Below, piece after piece: positions 21,907-23,431 of a stretch of DNA of 28,793 nt; within the stretch, counting starts at the first letter, position 1; every line of letters begins with the position of its first letter. This stretch comes from a virus: positions 1-28,793 of IMG/VR virus record IMGVR_UViG_3300014720_000137; one strand, written 5' to 3'. The notes below the pieces were generated by a model. The model did not search any database, was not told the origin of the DNA, and was given only the letters and a program-made list of their open reading frames with translations. The translations under genes and the position numbers were made by a program.

Positions 21907-22856
21907 TGCTGAGATATTTGATAGTAGGCAGCAATCAGACATCCACCGCGGATTTCAGCCAAACCCTTGGCTTAGCACCTAGTGAATTGGTACTGTCTGC
22001 CGAGGACGATTTTCAAATTGGACATACATCAGTGCAGGACATTCCCGATCTCAAACAACTTAGACAGGTGATCGATCGGGCTGATCATGTCTATTGGGCC
22101 GCATGTGATCCTGGTGAGTTTGATTGCGTGGAATCTTACCACAGCTTTCTTGATTGGTTAAAAGATTGTGATCGACAGACTCACAAGGTACGCAATCTCA
22201 AAGAGCTAAGGCATGACCAGTATCGCTGGGGTCAATCAATCAAACCCAGAGTAGATGACATGATTTTCTTTGGTTGCTCTTACACCGCCGGAGTGGGTTT
22301 GGATGATGTCCAGCAGGGTTATGCATACCAAATGGCAAGACATTTCGACAAATCATTGCTAAACTTAGCAGTGTCCGGGGGTAGCAATGGTTTGATTTTT
22401 GATAGATTTGTCAGGACAGATTTCGTCCAGGGACAAGCAGTCGTGATACAATTAACGATGCCAGCTCGATTGCATTATTGTTTTCCCGACAAAACATTGA
22501 GACCTTTGATTTTAGCCGATGCCAAATCACTCGATCCAGGCCTACACAGATCGTTGTTAGAAACTTACAACTCATCTTTTCTGTTTTATGAGCTGCTGTC
22601 TAAAATCCGTGCTATGGTACAAATTGCCCGAGCTCGTGATCTTAAAATGATCTTTTGGTTGGCCGACTACAAAAATGACACATCGATTTCCTGGCTGGAC
22701 CAGACGTATTTTTACGACATGGATGAGTTCGTACCCCGCAGCTGGATCCAGAACTATATGGTGGATTTTGGCAATGACAATCTGCATCCTGGTATAGAAT
22801 CTAATCGAACACTGGCTTCTGCCCTTTGTCGATACATTGAGACTGTGTATCAATGA
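21906..22856 (+). CDS. SGNH/GDSL-hydrolase-like protein
   Basis: A 316-residue protein. The C-terminal two thirds show SGNH blocks: FFGCSYTAGVGL (121-132) with S125 as the nucleophile candidate, NLAVSGGSNGL (153-163) with block II/III Gly and Asn, and DNLHPG near 291-296 with the Asp-x-x-His dyad. Family members are esterases or acetyl hydrolases, often acting on polysaccharides. Residues 1-110 are an unassigned domain. Start: I use the ATG at 21906 (TGATG overlap with the previous stop). The sequence is visibly more AT-rich than its neighbours, which suggests later acquisition. It might edit acetyl groups on a cell-surface or virion glycan, but the target is unknown. Confidence 0.77.
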   Translation: MLRYLIVGSNQTSTADFSQTLGLAPSELVLSAEDDFQIGHTSVQDIPDLKQLRQVIDRADHVYWAACDPGEFDCVESYHSFLDWLKDCDRQTHKVRNLKELRHDQYRWGQSIKPRVDDMIFFGCSYTAGVGLDDVQQGYAYQMARHFDKSLLNLAVSGGSNGLIFDRFVRTDFVQGQAVVIQLTMPARLHYCFPDKTLRPLILADAKSLDPGLHRSLLETYNSSFLFYELLSKIRAMVQIARARDLKMIFWLADYKNDTSISWLDQTYFYDMDEFVPRSWIQNYMVDFGNDNLHPGIESNRTLASALCRYIETVYQ

Positions 22857-23431
22857 GAGCAGATATCGACATCGATTTTGCCGATCGGCAGCGTGTGCTG
22901 GAGTTGATCGAGCATGTGCCTGCGCGACAGATCACGGACGGCCAGGCTCGCCGCCATAACTCGGGTGTGTATGCCACGGCCATACCCCGGGATCCTGTGC
23001 TGGACTGTGCGGCCATAGACTACGAGACCGCGGAAGCTCGGGGCTACTTCAAACTGGACTTCCTGAACATGACCGTGTATCAGCTGGTGAGAGATCCCGC
23101 GCACTATGAAAGGATCCTGGTCCAGCCTGTGCCGTGGTCTAGATTATGGCAAGAACCCGAGTGGGCCCAGCAACTGGTGCACGTGGGCAACTACACAGAC
23201 TTGCTGGCGGTCATGCGGCCCGACTCCATCCCCAGGATGGCCGCGTTCATCTCGATCATACGCCCTGGAAAAGCGCACCTGCAACGGCAGCCTTGGGACA
23301 GGGTGTTTGAGTCAGTATGGGATGGTGATGCCAGCCGGGGCTATACGTTCAAGCAAGCGCATGCCATCAGCTATGCCATGCTGGTGGCCCTGCACATGCG
23401 CTTAATCCACTCGGCGGACCAGGGTGATTGA
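22853..23431 (+). CDS. Minimal C-family (DnaE-like) polymerase-related protein
   Basis: Only 192 residues, yet the order of motifs follows bacterial DNA polymerase III alpha. MRADIDIDFADRQRVLELIE at the very start matches the palm PDxDxDF motif (D6 and D8). RRHNSGVYATAIP (33-45) matches the HAGGVVIAP strand. YFKLDFLNMTVYQLV (65-79) matches the KFDFLGLRTL motif with the third catalytic aspartate. MRPDSIPRMAAFISIIRPGK matches the P-fingers segment ending in RP. YTFKQAHAISYAMLVALHM matches the YGF-KSHA-AYA helix. PHP, most of the fingers, the beta-binding region and OB fold are absent. Activity is unknown: it may be a tiny polymerase, a regulator or a remnant. It overlaps the previous gene by four bases and the convergent gene by 30. 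Confidence 0.75.
   Translation: MRADIDIDFADRQRVLELIEHVPARQITDGQARRHNSGVYATAIPRDPVLDCAAIDYETAEARGYFKLDFLNMTVYQLVRDPAHYERILVQPVPWSRLWQEPEWAQQLVHVGNYTDLLAVMRPDSIPRMAAFISIIRPGKAHLQRQPWDRVFESVWDGDASRGYTFKQAHAISYAMLVALHMRLIHSADQGD

Follow-up and report, generated by a model that had tools for sequence, protein, structure and literature searches.

Polymerases of the C family replicate bacterial chromosomes and are large enzymes that are hard to reduce. The IMG/VR virus record IMGVR_UViG_3300014720_000137, which was analyzed here over its entire length of 28,793 nucleotides (hereafter "the window") and is a fragment, raises the question of what such an enzyme can be stripped down to. On its plus strand, positions 22853–23431 encode a protein of 192 residues, P0001, with motifs of DNA polymerase III (Pol III) alpha in their usual order; its ATG overlaps the stop codon of the upstream open reading frame (ORF; ATGA). 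In our analysis, P0001 is almost certainly the C-terminal half (C-half) of a split, minimal Pol III alpha. It is also probable that P0001 represents the metal-binding half of a two-gene, reduced Pol III alpha in a large group of mostly jumbo phages, and that the two halves rebuild one polymerase.

The original prediction, made from the sequence alone, had described a 192-residue ORF with five segments in DnaE order. All five are present in the translated plus-strand ORF (ADIDIDF, HNSGV, YFKLDFL, RPDS...IIRPGK and FKQAHAISYA), and the match lies far beyond chance, because the protein belongs to phrog_11778 ("DNA polymerase"; hmmscan, E = 5.2e-49, residues 2–186 of 192), recurs in 63 phage records and shows a low ratio of nonsynonymous to synonymous substitution rates (dN/dS). 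Full-length DnaE-type phrogs matched P0001 weakly with hmmscan, which assigned no Pfam family to it. A phmmer search of the PDB with P0001 alone returned zero matches, and a 15-row profile found Pol III alpha in the PDB weakly (best E 0.0016).

By tblastn, the family was detected in 63 of 50,697 phage records, with 61 matches covering at least 80% of the query. The carriers are mostly jumbo phages, among them PA5oct, RaK2, 121Q, GAP32, Atu_ph07, SCTP-2 and XacN1. Identity of P0001 to these records was always below 60% and reached 41.2% at best among the matches listed. One scan of IMG/VR gave 599 candidates, at least 582 of which encode relatives. A single scan by pattern across 84,980 species genomes of bacteria and archaea yielded nine loci, every one on a contig titled as a metagenome-assembled genome; these presumably represent mis-binned phage DNA, and the gene therefore appears essentially phage-specific.

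Does P0001 have the fold that its motifs suggest? An AlphaFold model based on 84 sequences reached a mean predicted local distance difference test score (pLDDT) of 92.7 and a predicted template modelling score (pTM) of 0.80. Pol III alpha chains took the first 13 places among the Foldseek matches, with E from 2.3e-4 to 0.25 and five of them within 1e-3, followed by an unrelated entry at E 0.68. VIA-align superposed 190 of the 192 residues on residues 460–839 of Thermus aquaticus (Taq) Pol III alpha (3e0d) with Z 10.1 and a root-mean-square deviation of 3.8 A, so that the model shares the C-family palm, as a structural check was meant to establish. In total, 14 entries scored between Z 6.5 and 10.1, all of them polymerases (for three, the title reads just "DNA polymerase", and their PolC-like numbering led us to count them as PolC), and the next entry had Z 3.3. 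The reduced C-family palm with part of the fingers that had been proposed from the sequence is thus borne out by the model, Foldseek and VIA-align.

Like the bacterial DnaE enzymes (3e0d, 2hnh, 5lew), P0001 has this palm fold, equivalents of D401/D403/D405, D555 and H760 (Escherichia coli numbering) and RPG followed by F-x-K-x-H-x-x-x-Y; the fold is also common to bacterial PolC (3f2b, Z 9.7). D401, D403 and D555 are described as absolutely conserved in the C family, whereas D405, the third aspartate of DxDxD, is described as kept in DnaE groups but not in PolC (PMC3919608). P0001 has this third aspartate, and its active site is therefore DnaE-like. Unlike DnaE, however, it spans about 380 positions of that enzyme with no more than 192 residues and includes no PHP, (HhH)2, beta-binding or OB part: the palm and finger superposition uses nearly the whole chain, and no Pfam domain was found in it. 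The GRGS/GS triphosphate-binding motif is likewise absent from the chain. The fingers are mostly gone, with 12 residues between the RPG and gate stretches compared to 98 in Mycobacterium tuberculosis (Mtb) DnaE1 (5lew); in 5lew coordinates, about 86 residues between RPG and the gate helix are lacking.

Conservation was assessed on 294 matching loci, some of them overlapping, of which 286 passed a filter for a DxDxD-type motif followed by at least 150 residues, leaving 214 distinct sequences. The eight loci dropped are all truncated (five keep their start and show the motif, and the other three run into the contig start). The filter itself demands the motif D4/D6/D8, and as DIDID-like strings were among the seeds for pattern retrieval, intact copies could be over-represented in it; phage records were retrieved by tblastn with no such seed, and ten named phages that were translated all keep the motif. 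Twelve residues are invariant in all 214 distinct homologues (D4, D6, D8, H35, G38, K67, D69, W95, R137, P138, H170 and Y174), and likewise in 92 representatives at 80% identity and in the 84-row alignment. Homologues at L238, L239 and L241–L243 start with MPDIDIDF and have intact aspartates. The alignment of homologues thus confirms that the catalytic aspartates expected in the original prediction exist and are conserved, but their numbering as D6, D8 and D68 was off: the residues are D4/D6/D8 and D69, accompanied by K67, and the three catalytic aspartates of the C family correspond to D4, D6 and D69.

All of these positions lie on the plus strand. The codons of D4-I-D6-I-D8 (22862–22876) correspond to E. 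coli D401, D403 and D405, as judged from the PDxDxDF motif and from the superposition, which begins at E. coli 398; one alignment to the E. coli protein by HMMER, with a domain score of -0.9 bits, runs two residues out of register, whereas the alignment to Mtb 5lew and the superposition are in register. H35-N-S-G38 (22955–22966) sits at the place of what we take to be the H-x-G-G loop of DnaE. K67-L-D69 (23051–23059) contains D69 as the counterpart of E. coli D555, the third catalytic aspartate, an assignment based on the motif and on the start of the matched stretch; if that stretch (60–140 on 609–701 of 2hpi) starts ungapped, K67 and D69 fall on Taq 616 and 618, which are presumably the catalytic residues there. 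R137-P138 of the IRPGK motif (23261–23266) align with E. coli R639-P640. Finally, in H170-A-I-S-Y174 (23360–23374), HMMER places the invariant H170 opposite E. coli H760, the proposed steric gate, for which invariance across all pol III alpha proteins is described (PMC8485763).

A short gene from which most Pol III alpha domains have gone could in principle be a decaying, functionless DnaE fragment. This explanation is hardly credible: the start region, the length and the twelve invariant residues recur in 214 distinct sequences, and a partner half is retained (see below). Furthermore, dN/dS (Nei–Gojobori) was 0.025–0.134 in seven of 11 hand-picked pairs, with 0.044 for the window against its relative L315 and saturated dS in the remaining four. 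This is strong purifying selection, in line with the selection for function suggested from the sequence.

Could the rest of the palm be encoded in the same frame? In P0001, three residues precede D4 and four codons separate the start from the preceding in-frame stop, so there is no in-frame upstream palm. Over 291 motif-bearing loci, the nearest start codon lies 1–18 codons before the first aspartate, and at most eight codons before it in 271. In the Atu_ph07 record (NC_042013.1; L082:5986-6561), the annotated coding sequence of the C-half begins at 6067, 27 codons past the likely start at 5986, and the DxDxD motif is thereby lost from the annotation. A natural fusion of two halves was also sought among the C-half loci; the one upstream GRGS match (L023) was judged to be due to chance, because the previous stop leaves only about 35 codons there, too few for the missing half.

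As a search of relatives with DnaE-type families showed, they instead carry a second, distant gene for a GRGS-bearing protein of about 170–200 residues, the N-terminal half (N-half), which belongs to phrog_11127 ("DNA polymerase"); phrog_7513 and phrog_13169 were rejected as its family, matching it weakly. The N-half of G001, a 261-kb relative of the window, exceeds the cut-off of Pfam PF07733. In the N-half model, the last 100 residues (93–196) superpose on E. coli 275–393 (2hnh) with Z 10.1 and on other C-family chains with Z 7.5–11.8. On the same chains, the N-half and P0001 are complementary, covering 275–393 and 398–784 in 2hnh, 306–413 and 418–811 in 5lew, and 824–965 and 970–1299 in PolC 3f2b. 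These endpoints place the cut through the palm between residues 393 and 398 of the E. coli enzyme. The place of the split is fixed: the N-half stops one residue after (E/D)FL (E. coli 393), ending at (E/D)FL(R/K) in 24 of 24 sequences of alignment A4 (29 distinct N-halves in all), and the C-half starts just before DxDxD (401–405). In the named phages, N-halves end in EFL plus K, N or E, that of 121Q being one residue longer. The suggestion that P0001 is a tiny polymerase on its own is not supported, since the GRGS-bearing palm half is a separate gene product in relatives; this partner half had been overlooked, as had a published prediction of it.

The published prediction is that of Iyer et al. 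(2021; PMC7824862), who proposed from genomes a split minimal Pol III alpha in "group 2.2" jumbo phages, with distant genes for an N-terminal NTP-binding and a C-terminal Mg2+/template-binding protein; the phages concerned encode a family-B polymerase as well. P0001 agrees with the predicted C-terminal part, and we match the two predicted units to phrog_11127 (N-half) and phrog_11778 (C-half). The phage of the window is a relative, with 41.2% as the best identity among the matches listed, and also carries a second DnaE-like polymerase, P0002. Hence, this kind of enzyme was already published in 2021, and the present analysis measured exactly where the split lies, that the steric-gate histidine is invariant and how often the halves co-occur. 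For phage CBB, a truncated alpha of 172 residues was remarked on in 2017 (PMC5259590), which is probably the N-half, and an alpha and an epsilon subunit were reported for Atu_ph07 (PMC6102473). Our literature search, with bioRxiv preprints and most subscription papers outside its scope, found no experimental test of the split pair.

Next, we investigated how closely the two halves are associated. The N-half was found by tblastn (E <= 1e-5) in 60 phage records, all of which also carry the C-half. Conversely, 60 of the 63 C-half records contain the N-half, or 61 when Slicko01, detected by profile (E 3.4e-17), is added; the remaining records are Slickus01 (from the host strain that also yielded Slicko01; tblastn only) and PP728206.1, a 109-kb record. 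A looser second query (E <= 0.01) returned 146 phage records; the extra ones among the 60 listed were weaker (best E 1e-7) and many were annotated as whole DnaE-like proteins, and, judging from those listed, the extra matches were taken for full-length enzymes. Within 20 C-half records chosen mainly for their length, 14 matched an N-half profile, one of them (G019) inside P0002, which leaves 13. Among 20 contigs retrieved by the N-half, four also carry the C-half. G001, with 76% identity, likewise has an N-half. No C-half locus examined had both halves adjacent; the distance between them is about 31 kb in 121Q, 43 kb in PA5oct, 84 kb in G001, 182 kb in Atu_ph07 and 224 kb in Phosso.

An epsilon-like proofreading partner is not obligatory or general, since DnaQ/epsilon-like RNase_T domains occurred in five of 13 C-half records (W01, W02, W03, G007, G011). 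A family-B polymerase turned up in 15 of the 19 C-half records that were searched, and also in the uncultured phage LR756508.1. No match to it was found among the scanned ORFs of the window, itself a fragment, and its lineage may use a family-B replicase as well. In W01, W02, W06 and G015, the family-B matches fall in separate open frames (e.g. 578 + 322 residues in Slicko01), and this polymerase may be split or interrupted too in several C-half phages.

The window offers a further candidate partner, which the original prediction had placed at 26990–28693 as a larger DnaE-like protein with which P0001 might act as a subunit. The protein, P0002 (567 residues), does exist at 26990–28693, but on the minus strand, the plus-strand reading giving stops. 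P0002 and the DnaE-like protein of LR756508.1 share with P0001 the C-family palm and the same catalytic motifs; in contrast to P0001, both are unsplit proteins of 567–574 residues, with fingers and encoded by a separate gene. In P0002, no PHP domain was found, and all catalytic motifs are present (D102/D104/D106, K224/D226, R91, the arginine pair R349-R350 and H392). An accessory role of P0001 for this enzyme would fit the 35 of 294 C-half loci (window included, some overlapping) at which P0002 lies 3.6–7.6 kb downstream in opposite orientation, as well as L409: for 55 P0002 loci no C-half was listed, and L409, alone among them in having more than 7 kb on that side, does hold one. However, P0002 has its own palm and fingers with all motifs and is patchily distributed, whereas the N-half accompanies the C-half in 61 of 63 phage records. 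P0002 was not found at 25 loci where 7 kb or more of sequence follows the C-half and where a more distant copy could escape, and 234 loci could not be judged. One of these 25 is L002, a close relative whose C-half joins those of the window and L315 in a starred clade (as L132); L380, among 26 loci classed as lacking P0002, carries a partial copy. On a C-half tree of 105 rows, the presence of P0002 needs five gains or losses, at least three of them forced by starred branches. P0001 therefore persists with or without P0002. In addition, the DnaE-type phrog_405 matched only the two halves in Atu_ph07, PA5oct, 121Q and Phosso. Based on the phrog_405 result, the absence downstream of many relatives and the five changes on the tree, P0002 was rejected as the missing half or general partner, and we regard it as very unlikely that P0001 is its accessory subunit.

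Over 32 loci, some overlapping, P0002 averaged 86.9% identity to the copy in the window and the C-half 68.4%. Helicase identity to that of the window was 70.9–97.2% (mean 84.5%) in P0002 carriers and 64.7–73.9% in non-carriers, with 88.4% in L380. At the level of sequence comparison, this suggests that P0002 and the helicase form a co-transferred cassette at one conserved, patchily occupied place.

Several observations weigh against a two-gene enzyme that includes P0001. No N-half was found in the window (E <= 1e-6), nor a separate one in seven of the 20 C-half records searched by profile, which are IMG/VR contigs of 85–217 kb and possibly fragments. P0002 was found in none of 20 N-half contigs (of 32) in a search that included no positive control. 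Nor did 29 P0002 contigs (of 80) show a separate N-half: each of the 19 N-half matches there lies in a frame of 533–616 residues, i.e. P0002. It is possible that the N-half was lost in the P0002-bearing lineage, and the fact that the two have never been found on one contig also speaks for P0001 as a subunit of P0002. Fragmentation can explain this pattern, because the longest P0002 contig, G019 (156 kb), stops short of the N-half neighbourhood: in comparison with G001, just one of the conserved N-half neighbours matched, a repetitive and perhaps tail-fibre-like protein, and the aligned part ends before the corresponding region. The N-half model is also weaker (pLDDT 78; best Foldseek E 0.07, with the first 12 matches all Pol III alpha), and at the position of E. 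coli R390 the N-half has a conserved acidic residue when aligned by eye. In P0001, the lost finger stretch holds R709/R710 in E. coli numbering. We take R390 and R709/R710 to be dNTP contacts of DnaE, and catalysis could be impaired by these changes.

How would the two halves work together? The data show homology and fold, where the split lies, which residues never vary, purifying selection and, in relatives, the co-occurrence of the halves; a physical dimer, its catalysis, its cellular role and an N-half in the genome to which the window belongs are proposed from them. In the proposed mechanism, the N-half and P0001 would associate non-covalently and rebuild a single palm of the Pol-beta fold. 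The N-half would bring the GRGS motif gripping the triphosphate of the incoming deoxynucleoside triphosphate (dNTP), and P0001 the three metal-binding aspartates, K67 and a remnant of the O helix with the steric-gate histidine. Such a dimer would extend a primer with dNTPs through the usual two-metal chemistry and might serve as a gap-filling or repair polymerase, or as a helper of primase and helicase, beside a family-B replicase. Because it has no PHP, no R709/R710 pair and no beta-binding or OB part, the split enzyme is probably slow and distributive.

Whether this predicted heterodimer is catalytically active is a question on which we lean towards a positive answer, our belief resting mainly on the invariant metal ligands and sugar gate and our doubt mainly on the lost finger arginines. 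Alternatively, the halves may assemble into a regulatory or structural complex that does not polymerize, e.g. a sensor of nucleotides or primer termini at the primase–helicase. The deletion of the arginine pair, the replacement of R390, a gene position close to primase and helicase and the family-B polymerase in 15 of 19 records all fit such a complex. Nevertheless, we consider it unlikely, since none of the 214 homologues differs at any metal ligand, at the neighbouring lysine or at the steric-gate histidine, and it is not obvious why a protein that only binds would require three aspartates or a sugar gate. For the broader picture, in which two proteins of about 170–200 residues, encoded tens to hundreds of kb apart, assemble in trans into an active polymerase whose two-metal site and sugar gate are complete, and the lineage of the window, with a family-B replicase and P0002, has three DNA polymerases, we see an even chance.

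The C-half gene lies near primase and helicase genes. In the window, it is followed by a convergent ORF of 125 residues (23402–23779, minus strand; phrog_11637, function unassigned), which overlaps its 3' end, by a protein with weak phage matches (one to a structural-protein family), by a TOPRIM DNA primase (24615–25619, plus strand) and by a DnaB/gp41-like replicative helicase (25597–27003, plus strand). A small reverse-strand gene was found 3' of the C-half in nine of nine annotated phage neighbourhoods, immediately so in eight. In eight of the nine, this gene is followed by a helicase or primase/helicase as third gene (fourth in Phosso); XacN1 differs, and the CM1 neighbourhood is without annotation. 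Upstream of P0001, the window encodes UvsX-like, gp32-like and UvsW-like proteins. The approximately 11.5 kb between the UvsX-like and the AAA/UvsW genes (4763–16288) encode methyltransferases, a cytidylyltransferase–cupin fusion, a protein that weakly matches glycosyltransferases and several ORFs to which no Pfam family matched, and look like a surface-glycan island. A radical-SAM protein with a QueE-like family among its matches is encoded just downstream of the UvsW-like gene (19104–20261, plus strand).

The split family is common, with at least 582 IMG/VR relatives in one scan, and our literature search found no bench test of it. As the exact gene boundaries and the residues to mutate are now defined, direct testing is possible. 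Together, the two halves comprise about 370–390 residues, which would make them the smallest C-family DNA polymerase known to us. If the proposal is true, a palm cut mid-way, with the fingers mostly gone and the metal ligands and sugar gate kept, would represent a minimal catalytic core of the family, and it may serve as a model for an early form of the C-family enzyme, as suggested by Iyer et al. (PMC7824862).

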